Source of the DNA: a virus | Reading direction: 5' to 3' (one strand) | Virus record (IMG/VR): IMGVR_UViG_3300021437_000061 | Location: 1 to 34,701 of that record | Length of the DNA: 34,701 nt | Part shown: positions 642-12,323 of the stretch, piece by piece | Layout: each line of letters begins with the position of its first letter | Numbering within the stretch: the stretch's first letter is position 1 | The notes under the pieces: model-generated | What the model saw: the letters and a program-made list of their open reading frames with translations, nothing else | Told to the model about the DNA's origin: nothing | Databases searched by the model: none | Made by a program: the position numbers and the translations under genes

Positions 642-657
642 AGAGGCCGAAGCCTCT
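642..657 (-). terminator. Rho-independent terminator ending the hypermodification operon
   Basis: Read on the minus strand, AGAGGC-TTCG-GCCTCT is a 6-bp G/C-rich stem with a UUCG tetraloop followed by a run of T. It overlaps the stop codon of the 656-883 gene and lies immediately before promoter P1. It is the clearest intrinsic terminator in the window. Confidence 0.9.
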
Positions 658-883
658 AGTCATTTATGATTTCAACCAACTTATCGTTCTCATCCAGCGT
701 TACCCAAAGAATCTGCATATCATGATACTCCTTGACCGAACCAGACACCGAGCCAAACGCAAACAACTCGTCGCAGACCTCAATCGAGGGGTTCTGGGCA
801 ACAACTCTCAACCCAGAGTCGCTCCACGAACGAATCGAGGCGTACTGACCTTCAGTCTTTGCGATACGGACGGTTTTGATCAA
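656..883 (-). CDS. Small hypothetical protein, last gene of the hypermodification operon
   Basis: I place the start at a TTG (881-883). It overlaps the stop of the glycosyltransferase gene as TTGA, and an AGGAA Shine-Dalgarno lies 5 nt upstream. An in-frame ATG at 928 is possible but would overlap the upstream gene by 49 nt. The 75-aa product contains EGQYASIRSWSDSG and ends in an acidic strand. It resembles the product of 186-383 in the EGxYAxIR motif and in its ending. The stop is inside the terminator hairpin. The function is unknown; its position suggests a small accessory of the modification operon or simply the last passenger gene. Confidence 0.6.
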   Translation of the reverse strand: MIKTVRIAKTEGQYASIRSWSDSGLRVVAQNPSIEVCDELFAFGSVSGSVKEYHDMQILWVTLDENDKLVEIIND

Positions 884-1587
884 AAGAATTCCTGAAGGTT
901 TGAACTGGGTTTCTCTGCCGCCAGCCAACCAATCTTGAGTTTAAAATCAAGTTTCTTCCCAGCGTACACCGACTCTTCGTCGGCCACTTTTAGAAACCTC
1001 GAAAACTCTTTCTTCCAGCGCAACTTTATTTGGTCGTAATTTTGTGTTGCCGCATAATCAGCAGTCCGGTTTGTCGACAAGAACGCCTTACATTTCCGCA
1101 GCTTCTTACGATTATTCAACAACTGAAAATAAAAGTCTGCGTCTTCAAAAATGTCAACTATGTCGTAACGCTCGTTGTCGATCAGAGATTTTCTGTGGGC
1201 AACAAATTTCCAAGTCCCTCGACTTAGCTCTGGCTGCACATGGAACATAAAACGACCAGAGTCGCACAACAAAGCGATATCTGTATTGTCATCAAATGTC
1301 TTCTGAAAATTATAGAAGTCGCCAACCGAAACTTTACTTTTCATATCGGGAGCCTTAAACGATACGTCATCATCAACCATCACAAAGTCTTCCTTGTAAT
1401 AGTCAAGGATAAACTGACGTTTCTCAGCAATCCCAGTCGGAACGAGTATCTGCTTACAATCAGCCTCAGAAGGAGCGCCGACGAACAACGTCACAAACGG
1501 CTTCAGCTCATCTGGCAGCTCGTTGAACGTTGTTTGTACCGACGCGCCGCCTCGGGTTGGAATTGCAATAGGGAGTCGCCAAGTCAT
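880..1587 (-). CDS. TET-associated glycosyltransferase-like protein (second copy)
   Basis: This 235-aa protein has an N-terminal strand LPIAIPTRGG typical of GT-A nucleotide-sugar transferases and an acidic VMVDDDVSF motif (residues 70-77) in the place of the metal/nucleotide-binding DxD. It shares its layout with the product of 4999-5811: IPT start, FNxLPxxxxPFV, IAxxRQxxLD, then the acidic motif. The two are therefore likely paralogues. By analogy with phage TET clusters it would transfer a sugar or related group onto the hydroxymethyl base in DNA. It ends SSNLQEFF, a C-terminal L-x-E-F-F peptide shared with three other operon products. The start ATG overlaps the stop of the P-loop kinase gene. 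The fold assignment is fairly secure; donor and acceptor are inferred. Confidence 0.7.
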   Translation of the reverse strand: MTWRLPIAIPTRGGASVQTTFNELPDELKPFVTLFVGAPSEADCKQILVPTGIAEKRQFILDYYKEDFVMVDDDVSFKAPDMKSKVSVGDFYNFQKTFDDNTDIALLCDSGRFMFHVQPELSRGTWKFVAHRKSLIDNERYDIVDIFEDADFYFQLLNNRKKLRKCKAFLSTNRTADYAATQNYDQIKLRWKKEFSRFLKVADEESVYAGKKLDFKLKIGWLAAEKPSSNLQEFF

Positions 1588-2129
1588 TTGAATAAAGACT
1601 CAATATGATCGAGAATCTTCTTTTGATCTGCGTACGTCTCATTCTTAAACTCAGTCAAGAACTCGCGAATCTCAAAATTTGAAGTCAAATTACCAATCTG
1701 AGTTGCCTTACTCTTCAGGAAAACCGCCGATTGATCTGACCCGCGCAAGGCAAACCGCGCTCGCTTCTCAGACTCTGAAGTCGTCAAAGCGATAACACGC
1801 AAGTCAACTTCTGGGATTGCCAACAGAACGTTAAAGAACTTACCGTTTGACAAACGATCGCCCTCATAAATGACGTTCTTATCTGTTGTGCGAATCCATT
1901 CTTCTGCCTCTGGTTGAACTCGCTTTCCGAGCCGATCAGTACCCGCAAAGGTTCCCTCGTCGGTATATTTCCCAAGCATATACAGATTCAGTTCAGCACA
2001 ATACTCAGCATGAAGCAGCGGCGTGACCGAAACTCGTTCCCAGCTGTGCAAATTCATAATTTCTCGAAACAGCGTTGTCTTCCCAGTTCCCGGTTCGCCA
2101 ATCACAGCAATAATTTTTCTCATAATCAT
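1584..2129 (-). CDS. P-loop kinase, candidate hydroxymethyl-base DNA kinase
   Basis: This 181-aa protein carries a Walker A motif GEPGTGKTT at residues 11-19 and a kinase-like acidic strand NVIYEGDRL further on, in a size typical of small P-loop nucleotide/nucleoside kinases. It directly follows, with an ATGA overlap, the gene at 2126-3169, which resembles the helical domain of 5-hydroxymethyl-dU DNA kinases and amino-acid:DNA transferases. In thymidine-hypermodifying phages a P-loop kinase phosphorylates the hydroxymethyl base in DNA before an amine replaces the phosphate. I infer a similar role here on the TET product. The ending HIESLFK is only a weak echo of the L-x-E-F-F tail. A generic nucleotide kinase is the alternative. 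Confidence 0.65.
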   Translation of the reverse strand: MIMRKIIAVIGEPGTGKTTLFREIMNLHSWERVSVTPLLHAEYCAELNLYMLGKYTDEGTFAGTDRLGKRVQPEAEEWIRTTDKNVIYEGDRLSNGKFFNVLLAIPEVDLRVIALTTSESEKRARFALRGSDQSAVFLKSKATQIGNLTSNFEIREFLTEFKNETYADQKKILDHIESLFK

Positions 2130-3169
2130 CCAAAAAATTCGTTAAGAGTTGAGTTTGGTTTTATCGAAGCCAGCGCCTCCGGTTCATTACCGATCCACCC
2201 ATTCTTCAACCACCACTTTGTTAAACCCGCAGGTATTCCAACAATTCCATGTTCCTCGCCAAGTAAGACTGACGGGTAAACGAATTTGCGAATCTCATAC
2301 ATTTCTTTCCAAAGTAACGCCTCTTCAGGGGCAACCCGCTCAAACTCTCGCAGATATTTCAACTGTCTGTAGTGGTGATACCCGCCGCCGCGCTTACCCT
2401 TGAAGCAGTTCCTGAATGAGCATATCTTTGTGATGAACAGCGGCACATCCACCTCTTTGTTAGGATATTTTAGCTCATACACCCGCTTCAACCAAATAAT
2501 CTTCTCAGACAGGAGCGCGTTCTCCTCGTCTGTTATTTTCTTATTCGCATCAAACTCGTTTGCTCGATCGTCCATATAGAGGATATTAAACAGACCAGAG
2601 GTGAGGTTGGCGCCGTCGTAAAAGTTGATCGACTCGTCTGAACGCATATCGGTTGTTATGAGTCGTTTCTTTGCAAACACCATGACGATCTCGTTAAACA
2701 GATCAGAAGCAAACCGCCCGTACCAAGGACACCGTTGCGACTCTGTCTGGAGCGCATCGTAGGCTTCCCTTGGATTCTTATCTCTTATGGTACGGTCAAA
2801 CCACCCCAGAGGATCGCCAGATACGGTATTAACAAACCAGTTCAGCACCAAGTTTGAGCAACCCTTGTAGCGGATCCACTTACGAGCAGTCCCGTAAACG
2901 ATCAAATCGTTCCATTCAAGTAGAAATTTATCAACCTCTGCGTTTGTTGGAACCTTTCGACCGAACTTCTCAAAGGCAAAGATTGCGGTCAACTCAGAGT
3001 AAAAGTTGCCCATCAAAAACGCAAGAAATACGCACTGGCCCTCGTCCAACTGCCGGCGCTTTGCATATTCAACCAGAAAGTTCTGGTGAACTGGGGGAAC
3101 GAACTCTGCGTAGTCAACGAACTTCTCGGCTCGCCAAACTCCGTCGTTTTTATCGCCTGGGATATTCAT
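2126..3169 (-). CDS. DNA-hypermodification protein resembling HMUDK-helical / amino acid:DNA transferase families
   Basis: This 347-aa all-helical-looking protein resembles, by recall, the group once called alpha-glutamyl/putrescinyl-thymine pyrophosphorylases, now linked to 5-hmdU DNA kinases and amino acid:DNA transferases. The points of similarity are WYGRFASDLFNE, an NLTSGLFN-LYMDD segment, and the basic/aromatic CSFRNCFKGKRGGGYHHY near residue 260. It is followed by a separate P-loop kinase with an ATGA overlap, so the pair may be a two-gene version of a DNA kinase or a kinase plus transferase. It ends NSTLNEFFG, the shared C-terminal peptide. It could bind DNA, be a catalytic transferase, or be a kinase subunit. 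Family membership is a judgement from remembered motifs, not a search. Confidence 0.5.
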   Translation of the reverse strand: MNIPGDKNDGVWRAEKFVDYAEFVPPVHQNFLVEYAKRRQLDEGQCVFLAFLMGNFYSELTAIFAFEKFGRKVPTNAEVDKFLLEWNDLIVYGTARKWIRYKGCSNLVLNWFVNTVSGDPLGWFDRTIRDKNPREAYDALQTESQRCPWYGRFASDLFNEIVMVFAKKRLITTDMRSDESINFYDGANLTSGLFNILYMDDRANEFDANKKITDEENALLSEKIIWLKRVYELKYPNKEVDVPLFITKICSFRNCFKGKRGGGYHHYRQLKYLREFERVAPEEALLWKEMYEIRKFVYPSVLLGEEHGIVGIPAGLTKWWLKNGWIGNEPEALASIKPNSTLNEFFG

Positions 3170-4662
3170 TTCAGTTCTAGAAACTTTTGATAAAACAGCT
3201 CTTGGTTTTTGCGGTTATGCGAATGCAACGGAATCATACTTAGGAACAACGAGGCGGCAAGCTGACGAATCAACCGACGCTCAAAGTCAGAATACCTCGA
3301 CAGAATCTTTGATTGAAACGCTGCCGCAATACCCTCGCGCCCCTTATTATATAACTTATCACCAACGTACAACTCAGCGTCAATCCAGTCATAGTCTGAA
3401 ATGGCCGATTGATATAGCTTGGCAATATCATAGTACTGGGAACCGTACAGAGCACCTCGCGGATCGACCAACTGTAACCGCTTGTAGTTGAAGTCGTAAA
3501 ACATGTTGGCAAAGTGCAAGTCCCCATGAATCAGCCGACTCCCATGAGGGGCTTGATCAACCAACGCGCTCAGGTCATTGACAAACGTTGCGATTTCTTT
3601 CTTGTCACCAATACCTGCTGGGAGAATCTGCGAACGACTCCAGGTCTTTGAAACCATTTCGCGAAGGAACCGCTGACCCCCGTTGTCTGGAATCAACGCA
3701 GAGTCAAGAAACTCGTTGACCGAATCAAACACCTCATTCCAGGTATTCTCTGACCGATCCAGATACAGCGCCAAGTCACGCAGGTTAGTTGAGCAAATCT
3801 TTTCCATTGAGACCGACCCAAAGCTCGTCTCATATACTGCAGGCGCGTATCGCTTCATCGAAACAGGCAAACTCAGATACCAGGTAGCTTCAGAATCGAC
3901 CTTTGCGTCAGATTCAGCGTTTGTCCCAGACTTCTTAACGTATCCGCCGCAGTCTTCCAGTCGATTGAACGACCGGGTTTTACTGATGCCTCGACAGGCG
4001 TTGTACTCAGCAATAGTACCAAAGTCCTTGAGGATTGGAACCTCAACCAGTCGAGTATTCTTGATCAACTGCAGGATACCGGAAATCTGCGTTTCCCCAT
4101 CGGCATTCGCTTTGACCTCGGTTGGAGGCTTGGCAAAGTAATACAACCCAGACAACGCCTTGTGGCTTCCAGGGATACTCTGTTTGTCATGATATTTGAT
4201 GACTGGTCCAGAATCGTCAGCGATACACCACCGAGACGAATCAGCTTCCATCTGGTATGAAACGTCACCGGGCTTCATCTGAGCAACCAACGAGTAATCA
4301 AACAGACTATCGCTCAGGTGAACAAACAGTTCATAATCCTCGTAGGGTATCTGAGCTGCCCCAAGAGTAATTGTCAACCCAGGGCCAGGACGCAACGCCT
4401 CAAAGCGTTCATCAATCTGGACGATCTCAACCCGAGTTCGGTCAATATGGAGCGAGTTCAACGCCTCATCAATCTGCTCCAGATGGAGCTTATTGTTTAC
4501 CACAATATAAAATCTGTCAAACTGATGGGCCGATTCAAGCCCCTCGATAATGTGACAGATTATCGGCCGACCCTCAAAGGGTAGCACAGTTTTCGCGTAC
4601 TGCTTACCGAGTTCACGAAACCTTGTCGACGAGCCTGCCGCCGGAATCATTGCAATTTTCAT
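3166..4662 (-). CDS. Bifunctional nucleotidyltransferase - APH/choline-kinase-like phosphotransferase
   Basis: Residues 1-225 form a GT-A-fold nucleotidyltransferase beginning MKIAMIPAAGSSTRF (the signature loop of sugar/alcohol-phosphate nucleotidylyltransferases), with VHLSDS as the acidic motif. Residues 255-498 form an aminoglycoside/choline-kinase-like domain with HGDLHFAN (379-386) and LVDPRG (398-403), then YYDIAKL. The same order occurs in bacterial capsule-precursor enzymes. I infer that it phosphorylates and then activates a small polyol, sugar or amino-alcohol as an NDP donor for the DNA glycosyltransferases. The start at 4662 places the conserved loop at the N-terminus; an ATG at 4704 is possible. 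It overlaps the HAD gene by about 50 nt, long for this genome. No L-x-E-F-F tail is present, consistent with a soluble metabolite enzyme rather than a DNA-acting one. Confidence 0.75.
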   Translation of the reverse strand: MKIAMIPAAGSSTRFRELGKQYAKTVLPFEGRPIICHIIEGLESAHQFDRFYIVVNNKLHLEQIDEALNSLHIDRTRVEIVQIDERFEALRPGPGLTITLGAAQIPYEDYELFVHLSDSLFDYSLVAQMKPGDVSYQMEADSSRWCIADDSGPVIKYHDKQSIPGSHKALSGLYYFAKPPTEVKANADGETQISGILQLIKNTRLVEVPILKDFGTIAEYNACRGISKTRSFNRLEDCGGYVKKSGTNAESDAKVDSEATWYLSLPVSMKRYAPAVYETSFGSVSMEKICSTNLRDLALYLDRSENTWNEVFDSVNEFLDSALIPDNGGQRFLREMVSKTWSRSQILPAGIGDKKEIATFVNDLSALVDQAPHGSRLIHGDLHFANMFYDFNYKRLQLVDPRGALYGSQYYDIAKLYQSAISDYDWIDAELYVGDKLYNKGREGIAAAFQSKILSRYSDFERRLIRQLAASLFLSMIPLHSHNRKNQELFYQKFLELK

Positions 4663-4999
4663 AGAAGAATTTGTTAATTTCAGGTCCCCGCGCCTTATCA
4701 TCAATTATAAGGTCATAGTACGGTTTTCCAAAAATAATCTCATCATAAGGAACCGCATACTTATCGAGCCAATCTCGGGTGAGTTGTCCGATGTCTACCA
4801 CAACCTTGTCGACATCTCCATTGTGCGTCAACATACGCCGAGCAGTCCAGATTGTGATGTGATTACCCGCTGAATGGAGGCTTCTGATATGCTCGATCAT
4901 TGGCCAGTTTGGCGCTGCGTTCCCGTACTTCAACTCACTCGTTTTCTCTGAATGGTTGGGAAAGCACAACGTATCATCAAGGTCAACAAAAACCTTCAT
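4613..4999 (-). CDS. HAD-superfamily phosphatase, capsule-biosynthesis (BcbF-like) type
   Basis: The protein begins MKVFVDLDDTL, giving the nucleophile and acid aspartates D6 and D8 of HAD hydrolases. It continues with IWTARRMLTHNGD (motif II region) and FGKPYYDLIIDDKA (lysine plus acidic metal motif). This arrangement (TARRM...TH, then GKP.YD..IDD) is that of the small HAD phosphatases encoded beside nucleotidyltransferase-kinase fusions in capsule loci, and here it again lies beside such a fusion. It likely removes a phosphate from a precursor before activation. I chose the ATG at 4999; a TTG at 5002 would add one residue. The C-terminal 50 nt overlap the next gene in another frame. Confidence 0.75.
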   Translation of the reverse strand: MKVFVDLDDTLCFPNHSEKTSELKYGNAAPNWPMIEHIRSLHSAGNHITIWTARRMLTHNGDVDKVVVDIGQLTRDWLDKYAVPYDEIIFGKPYYDLIIDDKARGPEINKFFYENCNDSGGRLVDKVS

Positions 5000-5811
5000 C
5001 AAAAGAACTCAGACAAAGAAGCGGTTGATGAACCTGAAAGGAACGCATCCTTCCAGGCAACTCGCGCCTCCCAGCGGTCAGTATCGCCAGACTCGGTTGT
5101 CCAGGATGCGTCAGTTTTCTTATCAATCGACACAAATTGGGGAAACTCCCGTTGGAGTGCCTCAATACACGCCTTCTGGGTTGCATTGTTCCTGAAGGTT
5201 GAGTTACCTCCGGCTGCTCCGTGCTTTGACTCAAACACATAGTCACAGATCAACAGATTGGGCTTACCTTTGGTCAACAAGCTCAGAATCGCGTAGAAGT
5301 CCTCATACAGCTTGATTGATTTGTCCTTCTGGTACATACCATCAAACGATACGCCTAACTCACTCCAAGCGGCCTTGTTGATACCGTAAACCGAATACAT
5401 CCGAGCAATCTCCTTGGTCGCTTCAAGAAGTCTATTGTTACCCCCTCGGTCGCTGATTCCAACCATCGAGTATGTATCGAGATAGTCGTCAACCAGATCA
5501 AACATATTATGAAAATCTGCCTCAGTCATTGGCTCATACTTCATATCAGCGTTTCGCTTCTTGAAACGGCACTGATCGTCAATAATGAAAACCTTATCCT
5601 CTGGGGATCGATCAAGCAGCTTCTGACGCACGTCGGCGATACCGTCACATGGACCAAGATCGATGACCGCCGCTTTTGGGTTTGCTTCTTTCAACAGACC
5701 TGCTCGACCGCTATGGGTCACAAGCGAAACGAATGGGCGAATATTCTCAGGGAGCGAGTTAAAAGCGACCTGCTTGTCCTCGCGCATATAGGTTGGGATA
5801 TAGATAATCAT
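4999..5811 (-). CDS. TET-associated glycosyltransferase (TAGT-like)
   Basis: This 270-aa protein starts MIIYIPTYMREDKQ, a GT-A-type first strand, and has VFIIDDQCRF at residues 74-83, where IDD is the likely DxD equivalent. GISDRGGNNR and an FYAILSLLTKG helix follow. Location directly downstream of the TET gene (ATGA overlap) and this motif pattern fit the phage family described as TET-associated glycosyltransferases, which decorate 5-hydroxymethylcytosine. It ends TASLSEFF, the shared L-x-E-F-F tail. It appears paralogous to 880-1587 but is longer. The sugar donor is unknown; the HAD and nucleotidyltransferase-kinase genes next to it suggest a phage-made, non-standard donor. Confidence 0.75.
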   Translation of the reverse strand: MIIYIPTYMREDKQVAFNSLPENIRPFVSLVTHSGRAGLLKEANPKAAVIDLGPCDGIADVRQKLLDRSPEDKVFIIDDQCRFKKRNADMKYEPMTEADFHNMFDLVDDYLDTYSMVGISDRGGNNRLLEATKEIARMYSVYGINKAAWSELGVSFDGMYQKDKSIKLYEDFYAILSLLTKGKPNLLICDYVFESKHGAAGGNSTFRNNATQKACIEALQREFPQFVSIDKKTDASWTTESGDTDRWEARVAWKDAFLSGSSTASLSEFF

Positions 5812-7133
5812 CCGAAGAACTCGTCCAGTTTAACGCCCTCAAACGCCTCTTTCAGATGCGGGTGATACGCATCTAACCAATTATCCCCTTCTGGTTTACC
5901 CTTCAAAAACTCATACCACTCCTTGGCGGGCGCGTATTCTTCCAACGGTTTATCGGCAAACATATCAGGACTGATACCGTTCCAACGCATCCGCTGGAGA
6001 GGATGGTCTGCGTTCAGGCGTCGACTTTCTACAAACTCGTATCGGGTTTCCTCGTATTCTTTGGTGCCTCCATTCGCCATACCCTCGCGCAGGTAGCAAA
6101 CGAGGCTCACCCGTTCAGCGTCAGGTTCATGATAAACCATTTCAGTATTACCATGCATCACCTCATGATTATTGATCAGCAGCAGGTCGCCTGGTCTCAC
6201 ATTGAAGGCAACCCGGTACTCTGGGGCAACCAAATACCCACCCGAGTAATTACCATTGTTTGACAGTACCAACAGATTCGACAGACCTTCAGTATAGTCC
6301 CCAGCGTCGTAGTGCATTGCTGTGCGGAACTTCGAGTTCACCGTTACCGTTGTGAACACAGTCTCAGGAACAAAGTATCGAGAATCAATTTTATCAGCGA
6401 ACTTACGCTGGGCTGCGTACCGGGCCGGCAATAACTCAGCAAAGCCCTTGTTCAAACTCTGAAGGAAAGGAAATGATTTCTGAAAATCTTCAAAATGATT
6501 CTTGGTATAGGCGCACTCACGCAGGTACGGGATACGCGGATACCGATCAAACCACCCGGCAATCCCACTATTCACTTGGTTGGCATAGGTGGTATCAGAA
6601 GTCATCCCGATAACCTGCTTGGCCTCAGCCGGCATCTGATCATGAGGCAGTTTGCTGGTTTTTACTGCCCAGTCGTTGAATACGAACCCAGCCTGTTTGA
6701 CCTGTTCAGAGCGCCACACTGACCCGCGATTCTCATTCTGATCGGTATTCTTATGCTTTCGGATAATCTCAGCAATCGGGTCATCCCCAGTCAGGGTTGT
6801 TGTTGGATTTAGGAAATAATTGAGAAGATCTTCCTGAAGAGGAGTTACCCATTCGCGCTTACCAAGGGTTCCATCCCGAGGTCCAGCCGCCAGCCCTCGG
6901 TTCTGCGAGGGAGTTGCCGCCGCTCTCAACCCGTTGTAAGCCTGATCCTGTTGTTCTTTTGAGAAGTAGTTTTTGCGAAACTTTGCAATAATCTTACTCT
7001 CATCGCCTGGAGTCGCCCCTGGCATATACACATCACAGTCACTCTCAAGCAGCGTATCGTACATATCTGGCTCAGCAAACTGCCCAAGCAAATGTGTACA
7101 ATCGAACTTCTGCTCTGCCACAATAACTTTCAT
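5808..7133 (-). CDS. TET/JBP-family 2-oxoglutarate- and Fe(II)-dependent DNA dioxygenase
   Basis: The conserved double-stranded beta-helix core is clear: MHYDAGD gives the iron ligands H274 and D276, NNHEVMHGNT gives H327, and ERVSLVCYLREGM supplies R341 for 2-oxoglutarate. The surrounding strands GGYLVAPEYRVAF and VRPGDLLLI are typical. The enzyme should oxidise the methyl group of 5-methylcytosine (or thymine) in DNA to hydroxymethyl. A long N-terminal region (1-250) contains ATPSQNRGLAAG. The start at 7133 is chosen for its GAGGAG Shine-Dalgarno 6 nt upstream; an open extension to 7238 would overlap the GIY-YIG gene. It ends VKLDEFFG, the shared C-terminal peptide. It is the first of a gene chain down to 656. 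No DNA cytosine methyltransferase is present in this window. Confidence 0.9.
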   Translation of the reverse strand: MKVIVAEQKFDCTHLLGQFAEPDMYDTLLESDCDVYMPGATPGDESKIIAKFRKNYFSKEQQDQAYNGLRAAATPSQNRGLAAGPRDGTLGKREWVTPLQEDLLNYFLNPTTTLTGDDPIAEIIRKHKNTDQNENRGSVWRSEQVKQAGFVFNDWAVKTSKLPHDQMPAEAKQVIGMTSDTTYANQVNSGIAGWFDRYPRIPYLRECAYTKNHFEDFQKSFPFLQSLNKGFAELLPARYAAQRKFADKIDSRYFVPETVFTTVTVNSKFRTAMHYDAGDYTEGLSNLLVLSNNGNYSGGYLVAPEYRVAFNVRPGDLLLINNHEVMHGNTEMVYHEPDAERVSLVCYLREGMANGGTKEYEETRYEFVESRRLNADHPLQRMRWNGISPDMFADKPLEEYAPAKEWYEFLKGKPEGDNWLDAYHPHLKEAFEGVKLDEFFG

Positions 7134-7775: not shown

Positions 7776-8025
7776 CGTATTCTCCAAGAAATTCAGTTAG
7801 TTTTTGTTCAGTAATAGGGGTATTGAGACGACGTAGGGAAACGTCATTCTCATCCACCAACAGCAAAGTCGGAATTGACCTGATCCCCCGCGTCATAGCG
7901 GTATCGTAATCGGCATCAATATCCAAACTTTCAACTGGGATACTTATATGAAGTTTATCCAACATCTGGCTAACCGATTTACATGGGCCACACCATTCAG
8001 CGTAAAATTTAATTAGTTTCATCAT
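7765..8025 (-). CDS. Thioredoxin-like protein
   Basis: This 86-aa protein has the active site FYAEWCGPCKS (redox cysteines C12 and C15) and the cis-proline loop SIPTLLL, the complete minimal thioredoxin fold. It directly follows nrdB with an ATGA overlap and probably supplies electrons to the phage ribonucleotide reductase, as the phage thioredoxin/glutaredoxin does in T4-like phages. I chose the ATG at 8025; a TTG at 8034 and a second ATG at 8022 are alternatives. Confidence 0.9.
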   Translation of the reverse strand: MMKLIKFYAEWCGPCKSVSQMLDKLHISIPVESLDIDADYDTAMTRGIRSIPTLLLVDENDVSLRRLNTPITEQKLTEFLGEYVVK

Positions 8026-8627
8026 TTTGCCCAAACATCACTCCACGTACCAACCAACGCACCCTTTGAGTACGAGGACTCTTCCTGCTCAAAGAAGTTA
8101 CTGTGAGAAGGTAGCGCGGTCATTTCATCAACCCAGGGGAGGGGGTTCTTCTTCTGTTTGAAAATGCCCTTCAGACCAAGCGCAATCAATCGACGATCGG
8201 CAATATACCGAATGTACGTATGCATATCTGACTTCAAAAGAGGCTGCTCAAACTCTGCTCCGTCCATTTCCTGATAGGCCAAGTCAATGAACGCGTCCTC
8301 AAGCTCAACCATTTTCTTGGCGATCTCGTACAGTTCGGCCTTCAATTCGTCTGTCCAGATATCGCGGTTCTCCTTGACAAACTCGCGAAACAAATATGTC
8401 ATACCCTCACAGTGGCAGTTTCCAGTGACTGAAATCTTGTCGTTATGACGAATTACGAACGCCTTACCGGGAACTTGTAGGCAATACACATCAGTTGACA
8501 TATCAACTTCTTTGAGGGCAACCTCTGTCGTTGGTTGCCGCACTTGCGAATTGGCAAAATGGGAGATAAGAGATAGGATTTCTGTGTTATTCATGTTTTT
8601 AGTACCGACCGAGTAACGGAACATCAT
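8022..8627 (-). CDS. nrdB: Ribonucleotide reductase small subunit, C-terminal half with C-intein
   Basis: Residues 1-70 are the C-terminal part of an intein. After an NNTEILSLISHFAN helix comes block F (DVYCLQVPGKAFVIRH) and block G (NDKISVTGN), with Cys71 as the first extein residue. Residues 71-201 continue NrdB: CHCEGMTYLFREF (iron-ligand region), then IADRRLIALGL, and a C-terminal tail for binding NrdA. The ATG at 8627 overlaps the TGA of the N-terminal ORF (ATGA), and a GGAGG Shine-Dalgarno lies 10 nt upstream, so separate translation is plausible. A TTG at 8636 is an alternative start. The penultimate intein residue is Gly rather than the usual His. A single-base frameshift or assembly error joining the two ORFs is the alternative reading. 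Confidence 0.8.
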   Translation of the reverse strand: MMFRYSVGTKNMNNTEILSLISHFANSQVRQPTTEVALKEVDMSTDVYCLQVPGKAFVIRHNDKISVTGNCHCEGMTYLFREFVKENRDIWTDELKAELYEIAKKMVELEDAFIDLAYQEMDGAEFEQPLLKSDMHTYIRYIADRRLIALGLKGIFKQKKNPLPWVDEMTALPSHSNFFEQEESSYSKGALVGTWSDVWAK

Positions 8628-9076
8628 TTGGACCAAGCCTCCAAGAATTCTTTACACCAAGAAGAATCAATTTCTGGAATTAAGTCGACGACCCATTCTG
8701 ATAAGTCCAATTCACCGCTCTTTGACAGTTCAATCAATTCTTTATGTTTTTCGGTAAGGGTTTTGATCGAGCCGACCTTTTCCCCAGAAAGAACAAACGA
8801 CAAATCGGGGGAGGCGGTATACTTTTCAGCAGTCGTTTCGACGATTTTCCCATCGAGGTCAAGGATCATTCTATGATCCTTTGACGTATGCTGGGAGATT
8901 GAATCTGATTCGAATTGATAGATTTTATCAACGGATTTTCGCACAATCCCGGTAGGGGAAACGAACGAGGTCTGCTGCGTCTCCATATCAAACTGACAAA
9001 CAGAATCAATCAACTGAACCTGATCAATCCGCTTCCAACCGCCAGAAGTCAAAACTTCAGTTTCTGGCACCAAACA
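8418..9076 (-). mobile_element. Intein in nrdB, divided between two ORFs
   Basis: The intein runs from Cys199 of the N-terminal ORF (CLVPETEVLTSGGWKRID, block A; TSKDHRMIL, block B) to the Asn in SVTGN of the C-terminal ORF. Flanking exteins join as SLIDES|CHCEGM, which restores an ordinary NrdB sequence. The N part is 150 aa and the C part 70 aa. The break falls in the middle, in a region (CKEFLEAWSK ... FRYSVGTKN) that could be the remnant of a homing-endonuclease insert. Splicing in trans is inferred. Confidence 0.8.
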
Positions 9077-9670
9077 AGATTCGTCGATAAGCGACCAGGT
9101 ATTTATCTTGGTCATACCTGGCATCAAGTTATTGCGACCAAAATTCATCATCATCACAAACGTGCTGAACAGTTGCATACCCTCTGTAAACGCTGAGATC
9201 GCACACATATGCTGCACAACCTGATTGGGATTCTTGTTGGCGGTAATCTGTTCAATGAAATCGTGCTTGTCTGCCATTTCCTTATACTTCAGGAACTCGT
9301 TGTAGGTTGTGTCTGGAAACCCTAGAGTCTCAAGTAAATGGCTGTATGCATCAATATGAACGCACTCACGAGCAGCGAACCCCAACAACATCATACGAAC
9401 TTCAGGCTGTGGAAACACCGGCAAGTAGTTGTTAACGTAGCCTGCTGCCACATCAATATCACCCTGTGTGAACAATCGCAGAATCTGTGTCAAGAAGTTC
9501 TTCTGACTTGGAGTCAACCGAGTTTTAAAATCCTTGATATCCTGTTGCATATTGACCACATTTGGTAGCCAATGAATTTGCTCATGTTTCTTCCAAAGCT
9601 CGTAGCACTTTGGATAGCTGAAGGGCTTGAATGTGTTTCGCGTATCTGTCAGTTTCAGTTTTTTCGTCAT
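8624..9670 (-). CDS. nrdB: Ribonucleotide reductase small subunit, N-terminal half with N-intein
   Basis: Residues 1-198 are class Ia NrdB: EQIHWLPNVVNMQQD, LTPSQKNFLTQILRLF, then ARECVHIDAYSHLLETLG with the iron ligands E102 and H105, and FTEGMQLFSTF. Residue 199 starts an intein (CLVPETEVLTSGGW). The ORF ends in the intein at EAWSK. NrdB carries the diferric-tyrosyl radical cofactor that drives deoxyribonucleotide synthesis with NrdA. The remaining extein and the intein C-part are in the next ORF (8022-8627). The gene starts at ATG 9670, 3 nt after nrdA. Unless the intein reassembles, neither half can be active, since iron ligands lie on both sides. Confidence 0.9.
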   Translation of the reverse strand: MTKKLKLTDTRNTFKPFSYPKCYELWKKHEQIHWLPNVVNMQQDIKDFKTRLTPSQKNFLTQILRLFTQGDIDVAAGYVNNYLPVFPQPEVRMMLLGFAARECVHIDAYSHLLETLGFPDTTYNEFLKYKEMADKHDFIEQITANKNPNQVVQHMCAISAFTEGMQLFSTFVMMMNFGRNNLMPGMTKINTWSLIDESCLVPETEVLTSGGWKRIDQVQLIDSVCQFDMETQQTSFVSPTGIVRKSVDKIYQFESDSISQHTSKDHRMILDLDGKIVETTAEKYTASPDLSFVLSGEKVGSIKTLTEKHKELIELSKSGELDLSEWVVDLIPEIDSSWCKEFLEAWSK

Positions 9671-9673
9671 ATA

Positions 9674-11458
9674 TCAACCCTCGCAAGAGATACAGGTTTC
9701 TCCAAGAGCAATAGCTCGCATATCCAATTCATCCTCAATCTTTACCCGCTTTACCTTAGCGCTAACCTTCTCGGTATTTGACAGTTTCTCTGACCGCACG
9801 TAGTACATCCCCTTACCGCCTCCCTTCCACACATTAAAGTGGATCGCGTGAAGCTGTTTGATAGAAATGTCGGGGCGAATAAAGATATTGAACGACTGGC
9901 CCTGATCAATAAACGGCTGACGATCACAAAGCTGCTCAACCAACCAGAGCTGATTGATCTCGGCAGCAGTTTTGAATACGTCCTTGGTATCTTGATCAAA
10001 TTCCTTGATATTTTGGATTGATCCATCTTCATGGACAACCTTCAACCACAGGTCATCGTATTCTAAATCGGTTTTAGACATACCCCTAATAATCTTGTCC
10101 AGGTGCTTGTTCTTCTGAATAAACGTACCTGACAGCGTGTCCTGACGGAAAGCGTTTGCGTGCCAAGGCTCAATCGAGGGAGACACATTACCACAAATCA
10201 GCGCGTTAGATGCGGTTGGTGCTAGAGCTGAACAGTGGGCAAACCGCAGGCCTGTTCCTTCCAGCAACGCAGGGGAACCGCGCTCAGTTCCAAGTTTCTT
10301 GTTGCTGGAATCCAGAGCAGCTTTGAACCGAGAAAAGATACGCTTGTTTGTTACTTTGGCAATCGCGCTGTCAAACGGGATATTGTTCAGCTGGAGATAC
10401 GAGTGATAGCCCATAACGCCCAGCCCAATCGAGCGTTCGCGAATCGCTGACATACGCGCCCGTTCAACCACGCTGGGCGCATTATCAATGAAGTACTGGA
10501 GCACATTGTCCAACATTTCCATCAGATCATCGAAAAACTGCTGATTATCCCGATACTCGTCCCAGTGTTCAAGGTTGATTGAGGACAAGCAGCAAACTGC
10601 GATTGTATCGTCAGTTGTGAGGAAAATCTCATTACACAAATTACTCTGTTTGACCCGATACCCTGCATCCTTCAGGTGCTGCGACAGCGCGTTGTTCACA
10701 TTATCAACAAACATGATATACGGCTCACCGCGCCCAGCGCCTGCTCTCAACTCAAGCAGCTTTGACCACAATTCCCGAGCCGAGACAACCTCATGAACCT
10801 TCCCGCTGTTTGGGTCTTTCAGTTCCCAGGAGTCGTCAACTGACCCGTCTAACATGCTGGCCTCGATGATCTTCATAAACCGATCATCAATCACCACCCC
10901 ATGATGAAGGTTGAGGCACTTGCGACGAGCATCGCCCGTTTCCTTACGCATTTCAAGAAAGTCGATGATATCAGGGTGATCCATACGCAGGTACATCGCA
11001 TACGAACCGCGCCGGGTTGAACCCTGACGAAACGCCATTGACGAATCATCATACACTTTCATATGGGGAATAACCCCCACGCTCTTCTCGTCTGCCCCTC
11101 GGGTATCAAAGTGCACCCCAACACCGCCCCCAAGCATACTGAGCCAGTTGGTCTCAGACAGCGTATTAACCAAGCTCTCCTTGGTATCATCAACGCTCAC
11201 CAGAAAGCAAGAAATTGGCAAACCGCTCTTATTGCGACCAAACGATAACACCGGGGTTGCATAGCCAAACCAATGCTTGCTTGAATAATCATACAGCCGT
11301 TGTGCGTGAGCCTCATTTGAGGCAAACTGGCTTGATACAAACGCATACCGTTCCTGTGGGCTTGTCTCGCTCTCAAGCATATACGAATCCCTCAGCCGAG
11401 ACAGGGAAATTTGATCAAACAGCGCGTCCCGAGACAGATCAATTTTGATATTATACAT
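9674..11458 (-). CDS. nrdA: Ribonucleotide reductase large subunit, class Ia, without ATP-cone
   Basis: This 594-aa protein carries the catalytic landmarks: ISCFLVSV (active-site Cys on the first strand), SNLCNEI (the N-x-C-x-E radical site), GNVSPSIEPW, the tyrosine-containing GMYYVRSEKL pair, and the C-terminal CISCEG redox cysteines. It reduces ribonucleoside diphosphates with NrdB. The N-terminus begins directly in the barrel-leading region, and the about 90-residue ATP-cone that turns most class Ia enzymes off with dATP is missing. That would leave dNTP supply without overall allosteric shutdown. No intein is present. It lies between thyX and nrdB in the early nucleotide operon. Confidence 0.95.
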   Translation of the reverse strand: MYNIKIDLSRDALFDQISLSRLRDSYMLESETSPQERYAFVSSQFASNEAHAQRLYDYSSKHWFGYATPVLSFGRNKSGLPISCFLVSVDDTKESLVNTLSETNWLSMLGGGVGVHFDTRGADEKSVGVIPHMKVYDDSSMAFRQGSTRRGSYAMYLRMDHPDIIDFLEMRKETGDARRKCLNLHHGVVIDDRFMKIIEASMLDGSVDDSWELKDPNSGKVHEVVSARELWSKLLELRAGAGRGEPYIMFVDNVNNALSQHLKDAGYRVKQSNLCNEIFLTTDDTIAVCCLSSINLEHWDEYRDNQQFFDDLMEMLDNVLQYFIDNAPSVVERARMSAIRERSIGLGVMGYHSYLQLNNIPFDSAIAKVTNKRIFSRFKAALDSSNKKLGTERGSPALLEGTGLRFAHCSALAPTASNALICGNVSPSIEPWHANAFRQDTLSGTFIQKNKHLDKIIRGMSKTDLEYDDLWLKVVHEDGSIQNIKEFDQDTKDVFKTAAEINQLWLVEQLCDRQPFIDQGQSFNIFIRPDISIKQLHAIHFNVWKGGGKGMYYVRSEKLSNTEKVSAKVKRVKIEDELDMRAIALGETCISCEG

Positions 11459-11486
11459 TTTACCTTTGAATTTTGTTGCGTTCTAC

Positions 11487-12323
11487 TTAACCGATAAATC
11501 CGCGATGCTGCTTCCAGCCAAAGAAGTTTCCTGACCGATCGCACTCAAACAGCAGAGGAGTAGCCTGATGTTCAGTCGGCGATGAATGTCGAGGAACTGA
11601 CCCAACCAACCGCTCAAACAATTTAACGTCTTCCTCTGGGCGCGGTTTATCGCCCCCATGAGTCAAATATGAGGCTCGCGCGCAGCGAGCAGTTGAATAC
11701 TTGAGCAGCGCGTTAATATCATCCTGCGTTCTGGCCTGCTCCCGCTCTTCAGGTAACACATACGGCAAGTGCCACATACTTTGATCAAATGCCCCTGAAC
11801 TGTACGTCTGCCGCAGTACCGGGTAACTTGATTCCATCGCCTCGATGATACTGACTGCCAGGTCGCGAATCTCAGGCTGCGCGTCCTTATGATTCCTCAA
11901 CTCAAAGAAGTTACTCCACTCGGTCGAGGTCACAACACCCTTTGCCATTGTGTGCCAATCATTCATACGATTTGCCCACTGTTTATGCAAACCCAACTCG
12001 GACAGCCGCGCTGCTGCCGCCTTGTTATGGGCGATTGTCTCGTCCCAGATACGCTTCATTTCAACCTGCGCCTCAGCGCTCACCTCGTCCCCTGACTGCA
12101 TCCCAGGCACATTTGAGCCCCAGAACTTTGGTTCCCATGATTCAATCGCATTGAACTTTGCCGTTGGGATTGCCCTGGATGAACTGAAGTTTCGCGAAAA
12201 TACCCGATGAGTATTGAACTCGGCCAACAGAACTTTCGGTAACACAATCTCAAATGTCATCAGACGTTTGCCGTTGCGGGCCACGCTATCCTCGACGATT
12301 TTTGCACTCGGTTTTACAAACAA
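11487..12323 (-). CDS. thyX: Flavin-dependent thymidylate synthase
   Basis: This 278-aa protein contains the ThyX signature in the form THRVFSRNFSSSR (residues 38-50; canonical R-H-R-x7-S, here divergent) and STARCARASYL near residue 215 for dUMP/FAD binding. ThyX makes dTMP from dUMP using FAD, NADPH and methylenetetrahydrofolate. The start is a TTG at 12321-12323 with a GAGGTG Shine-Dalgarno 5 nt upstream. Because this is ThyX rather than a ThyA-type dUMP hydroxymethylase, there is no sign in the window of hydroxymethyl-dUMP synthesis. That favours modification of the bases after polymerisation. Confidence 0.9.
   Translation of the reverse strand: MFVKPSAKIVEDSVARNGKRLMTFEIVLPKVLLAEFNTHRVFSRNFSSSRAIPTAKFNAIESWEPKFWGSNVPGMQSGDEVSAEAQVEMKRIWDETIAHNKAAAARLSELGLHKQWANRMNDWHTMAKGVVTSTEWSNFFELRNHKDAQPEIRDLAVSIIEAMESSYPVLRQTYSSGAFDQSMWHLPYVLPEEREQARTQDDINALLKYSTARCARASYLTHGGDKPRPEEDVKLFERLVGSVPRHSSPTEHQATPLLFECDRSGNFFGWKQHRGFIG

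Follow-up and report, generated by a model that had tools for sequence, protein, structure and literature searches.

A candidate composite DNA-hypermodification operon with clamp-type tails in a T4-like phage

Which base does a phage decorate, and with what, when a TET dioxygenase shares an operon with both sugar-type and kinase-type enzymes? The question is raised by positions 656 to 7133 of the IMG/VR record IMGVR_UViG_3300021437_000061, a 34.7 kb fragment (34,701 nucleotides) of a T4-like phage that we call the window. Eight overlapping minus-strand reading frames, running from 7133 to 656, make up a real, functional-looking DNA-hypermodification operon in which two cassettes are joined. 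We consider it probable, with appreciable room for doubt, that this composite operon acts after or during replication. Its enzymes are as follows.

5808 to 7133, minus strand: TET/JBP 2-oxoglutarate-Fe(II) dioxygenase, 441 amino acids (Tet_JBP, E-value 5.1e-23, above cut-off)
4999 to 5811, minus strand: TAGT1, glycosyltransferase of 270 amino acids with a DD motif (PHROG 842, 9.2e-46)
4613 to 5002, minus strand: HAD phosphatase of the EcbF/BcbF type, 129 amino acids (TIGR01689, a subfamily match, 1.4e-17, under the curated cut-off)
3166 to 4662 (longest frame from 4704), minus strand: NTK, a nucleotidyltransferase-APH kinase fusion (NTP_transf_3, 7.6e-8; APH, 6.9e-5)
2126 to 3169, minus strand: ADDT-like helical transferase, 347 amino acids (PF18724, 3.3e-4, under cut-off)
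1584 to 2129, minus strand: P-loop kinase, 181 amino acids (Ploopntkinase3, 41.9 bits against a cut-off of 27, 1e-10)
880 to 1587, minus strand: TAGT2, divergent second glycosyltransferase of 235 amino acids with a DDD motif (PHROG 842, 1e-5)

An initial annotation had placed a DNA-hypermodification operon here. All eight frames are present, and the gene identities hold (for the ADDT-like protein and TAGT2 only with the help of relatives). The catalytic motifs are intact: HxD..H..R in TET, DLDDT in HAD, GEPGTGKT in the P-loop, HGDLHFAN..DPRG in APH and DD/DDD in the TAGT proteins.

Two cassettes in one operon

The start of TET at 7133 agrees with the start site of its relatives, and its AlphaFold model, a double-stranded beta helix, matches CcTet (5.5e-10), NgTET1 (2.6e-7) and TET2 (3.1e-6). 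H274-x-D276, which together with H327 supply the iron ligands, and R341, the 2-oxoglutarate arginine, are invariant across 20 relatives. By sequence and fold this is a TET-family enzyme that would oxidise the 5-methyl group of a pyrimidine in DNA.

TAGT1, HAD and NTK form a sugar cassette with TET. TAGT1 scores 23 bits against Pfam TAGT (PF20691), under the cut-off of 27.5, and its 50% identical homologue in Stenotrophomonas phage DLP6 passes that cut-off; we assign TAGT1 to the TAGT family on the PHROG 842 match and this homologue. Solved relatives of HAD include 1xpj (5e-18) and 9iqw, a "capsule biosynthesis protein" (3e-9), and NTK matches MurU, RmlA and GlmU models with E-values of 1e-5 to 1e-7. 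A single-sequence scan of IMG/VR with NTK found no relatives. Alignments of two or three rows did recover relatives of NTK and of the ADDT-like protein when used as queries, and a profile search with NTK yielded 21 viral loci. In all but a few of these HAD lies directly upstream of NTK, the exceptions being a contig end or a small intervening frame. The window's own order, TET-TAGT-HAD-NTK, is found in five contigs (L129, L130, L131, L134 and L135), and also in L133, where the contig end truncates TET; the order TAGT-HAD-NTK-TET is found in six more (L136-L138, L140, L141 and L144) and in DLP6. The set thus recurs in 11 IMG/VR contigs (L133 being extra) and in DLP6, and S-CBWM1 has TET-TAGT-HAD-NT-APH, with NT and APH as separate genes in matching order. 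The pairing of TET with a capsule-like donor pathway, at first taken to be new, is therefore a recurrent one.

HAD-NTK is also found away from TET. In phages bearing a thymidylate-synthase homologue (Enterococcus phage 9183, which is L149, and also L146 and L148), the pair comes after that homologue, and in L146 and L149 a different glycosyltransferase follows. Because HAD-NTK recurs with TET/TAGT and, separately, with thymidylate-synthase homologues in unrelated phages, we conclude that it is a portable donor-making module. Membership of HAD in a capsule-phosphatase subfamily would fit a role in capsule or surface chemistry, with the pair standing beside TET genes by accident. We regard this as very improbable, given that in unrelated phages the pair adjoins either TET/TAGT or a thymidylate-synthase homologue and a glycosyltransferase, and that no surface genes surround it. 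As a separate observation, two HAD-NTK contigs (L142 and L146), one of them with a thymidylate-synthase homologue, encode PF00145 cytosine-C5 methylases; no TET was seen near NTK on these contigs.

The ADDT-like protein, the kinase and TAGT2 make up a probable phosphate/amino-acid cassette. Taken alone, the ADDT-like sequence gave an uninformative hhalign value of 4% against the ADDT family, and with relatives added the value was 96.7% against ADDT members above cut-off. Its AlphaFold model (pLDDT 80, pTM 0.82) matches proteins named as ADDT in mycobacteriophages and in Salmonella phage 38, and the closest solved fold is the 5-phosphomethyldeoxyuridine (5-PmdU) glycinyltransferase 8z2n (probability 1.00). 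Sequence searches of the PDB with the protein and with its family gave chance matches only, and a single-sequence scan of IMG/VR found no relatives. A 35% identical protein of phage LysYB1 has as neighbours HMUDK_HMUD1 (1.8e-24), HMUDK_hel (6e-41) and a thymidylate-synthase homologue. From hhalign and the fold we conclude that a helical ADDT domain is present in the 347-residue protein. HMUDK_hel was rejected as the family of this protein (profile comparison 0.2%).

The kinase matches PF18751 only, with no match to PF18748 (HMUDK) or PF18723 (the helical domain), and has no relatives in the cellular genomes searched; its PHROG label, "terminase small subunit", is an old annotation that we did not use. 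TAGT2 is a paralogue of TAGT1 (4.2e-9) that reaches 16 bits against PF20691 (E-value 0.012; cut-off 27.5). To place these genes we used a freshwater set of 80 T4-like TET loci and a marine set of flavophage-type TET loci. In 30 of the 31 freshwater cases an ADDT gene lies upstream of the kinase at a distance of no more than two genes, and GATase, an amidoligase-like protein and GNATs are often added. The pairing is also found in L127 and L128, in Caulobacter phage Cr30 and in nine marine loci, out of 20 marine loci that have the kinase. L128 has two ADDT/aGPT-Pplase-like proteins followed by a Ploopntkinase3 kinase. Based on the LysYB1 similarity and the 8z2n fold, we assign the ADDT-kinase pair to 5-phosphomethylpyrimidine chemistry: the kinase would probably phosphorylate a 5-hydroxymethyl base within DNA, after which an amino acid or amine would probably be put in place of the phosphate by the ADDT-like enzyme.

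A different role for the ADDT-like protein, that of a helical DNA-binding kinase partner comparable to HMUDK_hel, would end this branch at the phosphorylated base. The tight pairing with the kinase suits such a role, as do the 11 marine loci with TET and kinase but without ADDT, and the C-terminal tail (described below) that in T4-like phages sits on ADDT and not on the kinase. We nevertheless think it quite unlikely, as there is no similarity to HMUDK_hel, the best solved fold is a glycinyltransferase, and LysYB1 carries ADDT-like, HMUDK and HMUDK_hel proteins as three separate genes.

Two further genes were seen beside such pairs. In L128 a cytidylyltransferase-like gene (2632-3072), possibly a donor-activating enzyme, lies directly 3' of the ADDT-kinase pair. 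In L045, one of the kinase-type freshwater phages, GATase_6 and a weak amidoligase-like gene (10305-11857) stand between TET and ADDT, which suggests amide formation on the added amino acid; a similar idea has been put forward for CmoY of phage S-B43 (PMC12783734).

The union of the two cassettes is rare. In 37 freshwater loci, the interval from TET to a fixed gene downstream holds exactly one cassette (kinase/ADDT in 24, a c21/c22 pair in eight and TAGT in five), and in the marine set the kinase is found in 20 loci, a TAGT-type glycosyltransferase in 53 and both in none (hypergeometric 2.5e-13). Across these two unrelated phage groups, sugar and kinase cassettes occur together in 0 of 110 TET loci, which agrees with the initial view that the combination is unusual; short contigs weaken this exclusion and do not explain it. 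Both types are present in the window and, more loosely arranged, in Cr30. Contigs L129 and L131 share the window's primase, nrdA, nrdB and SegE and lack kinase and ADDT. Since they carry the first cassette alone at the matching place, with the same upstream genes, we conclude that in the window a second cassette was added to the first. The sugar module is not unique; what is rare is its union with the kinase/ADDT module.

This history bears on whether the cassettes cooperate at all. They are separate and mutually exclusive elsewhere and look as if joined by gene exchange, so that TET/TAGT1/HAD/NTK and kinase/ADDT/TAGT2 might modify different bases, with none shared. We consider this rather unlikely: there is a single TET, yet both cassettes need a hydroxymethyl group, and one overlapping operon suggests co-expression. 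In a side observation, c21, a 336-residue protein without family assignment (L022 11100-12107 and relatives), takes the place of TAGT or kinase/ADDT after TET. In 10 of 11 cases its N-terminus reads MSLHEFLG, as though a clamp tail had been placed at that end; the HAD-like c22 comes next.

The single chain of 4-base overlaps first described holds for most, though not all, of the junctions. Exact 4-base overlaps join TET to TAGT1, TAGT1 to HAD, NTK to ADDT, ADDT to kinase and kinase to TAGT2, and a sixth joins TAGT2 to the small last gene if the latter begins at TTG 883. HAD and NTK, in contrast, overlap by 50 bases (ATG 4662) or 92 bases (TTG 4704). Two more features close the operon.

656 to 883, minus strand: small protein of about 75 amino acids, TTG start with a 4-base overlap (family and relative searches gave no match)
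642 to 657, minus strand: strong intrinsic terminator, AGAGGCTTCGGCCTCT-TTTT, 3' of the last gene

The main genes of the window are all on the minus strand, and nrdA, an intein-bearing nrdB, thioredoxin, ThyX, primase and a SegE-type endonuclease lie on the upstream side. An intein-like segment breaks nrdB (8022-9670) into two overlapping frames of 348 and 204 amino acids, which might represent either a split or a frameshifted intein; in the relatives L129 and L131 nrdB is intact (325 amino acids).

C-terminal tails and the sliding clamp

The most informative feature of the operon is a short C-terminal peptide shared by four of its enzymes, from which we predict that the modification is coupled to the phage sliding clamp. 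A strict tail of the L-x-x-F-F type is expected by shuffling in 0.44% of window genes. It occurs in 4 of 52, all of them in the operon; HAD, NTK and the kinase have no tail.

5811 to 5828, minus strand: TET tail LDEFFG (L436 and F440 invariant in 20 relatives; strict in 80 of 83 closed relatives)
5002 to 5016, minus strand: TAGT1 tail LSEFF (TAGT1 of other NTK loci: 12 of 13 strict, 13 of 13 loose)
2129 to 2146, minus strand: ADDT-like tail LNEFFG (freshwater ADDT family: 16 of 37 strict)
883 to 897, minus strand: TAGT2 tail LQEFF

The same distribution is seen in relatives. In the freshwater set, 39 of 40 family-B DNA polymerases (SSLEDFFG), 6 of 6 TAGT proteins and 19 of 22 members of one GNAT family carry the tail; it is on no kinase, GATase or amidoligase-like protein, 0 of 75 helicases and 0 of 58 UvsX proteins. 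In the NTK loci it is on 12 of 12 TET proteins, 0 of 19 HAD and 0 of 19 NTK. From sequence alone, then, the tails separate likely DNA-acting enzymes from small-molecule donor makers. In T4, gp43, gp55 and gp33 bind the clamp gp45 through similar hydrophobic, acidic, exchangeable C-termini (PMC2988020), and alpha-GT binds gp45 while beta-GT does not (PMC13216743). Based on the shared motif, we propose that the tail peptides probably hold TET, TAGT1, TAGT2 and the ADDT-like protein on the phage clamp.

Marine phages show a second type of tail. Their proteins end in QxxL[FLW] in 52 of 53 glycosyltransferases, 20 of 20 kinases and 42 of 60 copies of a 151-residue protein, against 0.17% expected by shuffling, and hardly any other family is tagged. 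QxxLF-type peptides are a bacterial beta-clamp motif. The tagged marine kinases suggest that the kinase acts on DNA. A DNA_PPF-type clamp match was found in six of seven T4-like or large TET genomes searched, mostly weak (the DLP6 clamp, AMQ65962.1, is also annotated as such); there was none in S-CBWM1, in the 68 kb fragment G033 or in the marine records, and in P12024L neither a polymerase nor a clamp is annotated. These patterns suggest that related decorating enzymes carry whichever tail fits the clamp used by the phage, with convergent tails for two clamp systems through which phages seem to couple base decoration to the fork. The tails appear to be new and general; among described cases, the literature searched gave only the T4 alpha-GT contact.

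The 151-residue protein is itself of interest. It follows TET (L153 2539-2994, L155 5864-6337 and 58 other marine loci), measures 151 to 157 amino acids, mostly ends in QTKLF, and has an E-x-K motif (GEN..G.EIKND) and no Pfam match. It is perhaps a PD-(D/E)xK nuclease, which might cut unmodified DNA at the clamp.

The oxidised base and the proposed pathway

To infer the base that TET oxidises, we turned to the gene content of its relatives. PF00145 is absent from all six complete TET genomes (DLP6, Cr30, C48C1, S-CBWM1, P12024L and HTVC112P), was not found in 160 kb TET contigs or in the window fragment, and is in none of the kinase/ADDT-type loci tested; it is present in just 2 of about 75 TET records, both marine contigs of the glycosyltransferase type. 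PF00303 (thymidylate-synthase family; dUMP hydroxymethylase) was not found in the window fragment, where ThyX is present instead, and was seen in one TET record among those searched, that of Cr30, as a thymidylate synthase. TET needs a 5-methylpyrimidine, and where no C5-methylase is present thymine is the only one sure to be available; in addition, the kinase and ADDT families suggest thymidine chemistry. For these reasons we lean slightly towards thymine as the oxidised base, and give 5-methylcytosine (5mC) a substantial chance that falls short of even. The initial annotation had named 5mC as substrate, and the relatives' gene content favours thymine or leaves the base undecided.

A full cytosine route would have TET act on 5mC that stems from a C5-methylase of the phage or its host, with the TAGT proteins, kinase and ADDT decorating 5-hydroxymethylcytosine. 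The two marine contigs with PF00145 speak for it, and Burke and colleagues in 2021 are said to have reported phage TET activity on 5mC. An Asp of the window TET also aligns with the position of human TET2 Asn1387, which we take to be a base-contacting residue, with Asp presumably found there in the 5mC-binding NgTET1. We hold this route possible but on balance improbable, given the absence of PF00145 from the six complete phages, the 160 kb contigs and the kinase/ADDT-type loci tested, and given that the nearest ADDT relatives sit in, or resemble, 5-hydroxymethyldeoxyuridine (5hmdU) pathways. The main text of the MetaGPA paper has no mention of phage TET (PMC8670742) and so does not bear on the choice of base.

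Returning to the composite operon, we propose the following pathway. TET would hydroxylate the 5-methyl group of a pyrimidine in DNA. HAD and NTK would make a nucleoside diphosphate (NDP)-activated donor from a sugar or polyol (phosphate), in the manner of MupP-AmgK-MurU, and TAGT1, in keeping with its gene association, would transfer the donor sugar to the hydroxymethyl group. The kinase would phosphorylate the 5-hydroxymethyl base and the ADDT-like protein would swap the phosphate for an amino acid or amine; TAGT2 may glycosylate the product of this branch or add a second sugar to the first. L-x-x-F-F tails would tether TET, TAGT1, TAGT2 and ADDT to the clamp. One base bearing everything and two separately modified positions are equally compatible with this scheme. 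If true, the TET-kinase-ADDT route would provide bases with amines or amino acids attached for use in DNA labelling, and might account for restriction resistance.

Several points weigh against this proposal. The window is a fragment, so a C5-methylase or hydroxymethylase may lie elsewhere in the genome, and host-made 5mC is a possible TET substrate. The TET active-site positions do not separate thymine from 5mC: the Arg that aligns with human His1904, a residue whose role we assume, is also present in CcTet, which presumably acts on 5mC. The ADDT-like protein and TAGT2 are both under Pfam cut-offs, the 8z2n fold match has an E-value of 0.05, and the kinase falls outside the HMUDK_HMUD1 family. 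As to tethering, the kinase of T4-like phages has no clamp tail, marine TET itself has no QxxLF tail, and the contact of alpha-GT with gp45 was found not to set the T4 glucosylation pattern (PMC13216743).

A bolder version, which we put forward tentatively and rate at somewhat less than an even chance, is synthesis in the manner of base J in a bacterial virus. TET would hydroxylate thymine at the clamp, and the resulting 5-hydroxymethyluracil would be glycosylated, phosphorylated and aminoacylated by clamp-tethered enzymes, with no precursor-level hydroxymethylase; phage enzymes that decorate DNA would then, as a general rule, be tethered through a polymerase-type or QxxLF tail.

Comparison with known systems

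The donor-making step resembles MupP-AmgK-MurU peptidoglycan salvage (PMC5371407), in which a HAD phosphatase, an anomeric kinase and a nucleotidyltransferase work in series towards an NDP-sugar. There is, however, no close homology: the nucleotidyltransferase domain is weakly MurU-like and the HAD is of another subfamily. In the RB69/NP arabinosyl-cytosine cluster (PMC13390438), a phage sugar kinase and NTP-transferase are likewise suggested to provide a DNA glycosyltransferase with its donor; there the base comes from a thymidylate-synthase-family enzyme, and TET, the kinase/ADDT branch and the HAD-NTK fusion are lacking. A further sugar is suggested by phage C48C1 (L006 11317-13349), where the genes after TET encode a protein without family assignment and a UDP-galactopyranose mutase, as for galactofuranose on DNA.

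Phages M6, ViI, PaMx11 and SP10 share the kinase and ADDT logic of a phosphorylated hydroxymethyl base followed by displacement (PMC6449724). In these phages a thymidylate-synthase homologue makes 5hmdU ahead of replication, whereas the window TET would act in DNA, and the window kinase is from a P-loop family other than that of their 5hmdU kinases. For cytosine, Iyer in 2013, Burke in 2021 and Pyle in 2024 are said to have described phage TET oxidation followed by TAGT glycosylation, paired with a cytosine-C5 methylase; in contrast, most relatives of the window tested have no C5-methylase.

Two phages are also among the close counterparts. One region of Cr30 (NC_025422) holds, as in the window, TET, ADDT (1e-52), TAGT and a P-loop kinase that is 34% identical, and the TAGT ends in an LSKLF tail. 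Unlike the window, Cr30 spreads these genes over about 9 kb, has its own thymidylate synthase, and has no HAD-NTK. An inositol-1-phosphate synthase between or next to its ADDT and TAGT (L004 15290-16471) suggests inositol decoration. DLP6 (KU682439; PMC5349666) lacks a P-loop kinase, ADDT and TAGT2, and its cluster is annotated as SNF2 repair or hypothetical. The DLP6 paper names 18 restriction enzymes, but gives their outcome in an incomplete sentence on which we base no conclusion. The TET, TAGT, HAD and NTK families are nevertheless adjacent there as in the window, TET and NTK being 45% and 35% identical to those of the window, and its TET and TAGT carry the L-x-x-F-F tail. DLP6 and Cr30 are isolated, published phages in which the base oxidised by a phage TET, thymine or 5mC, could be settled.

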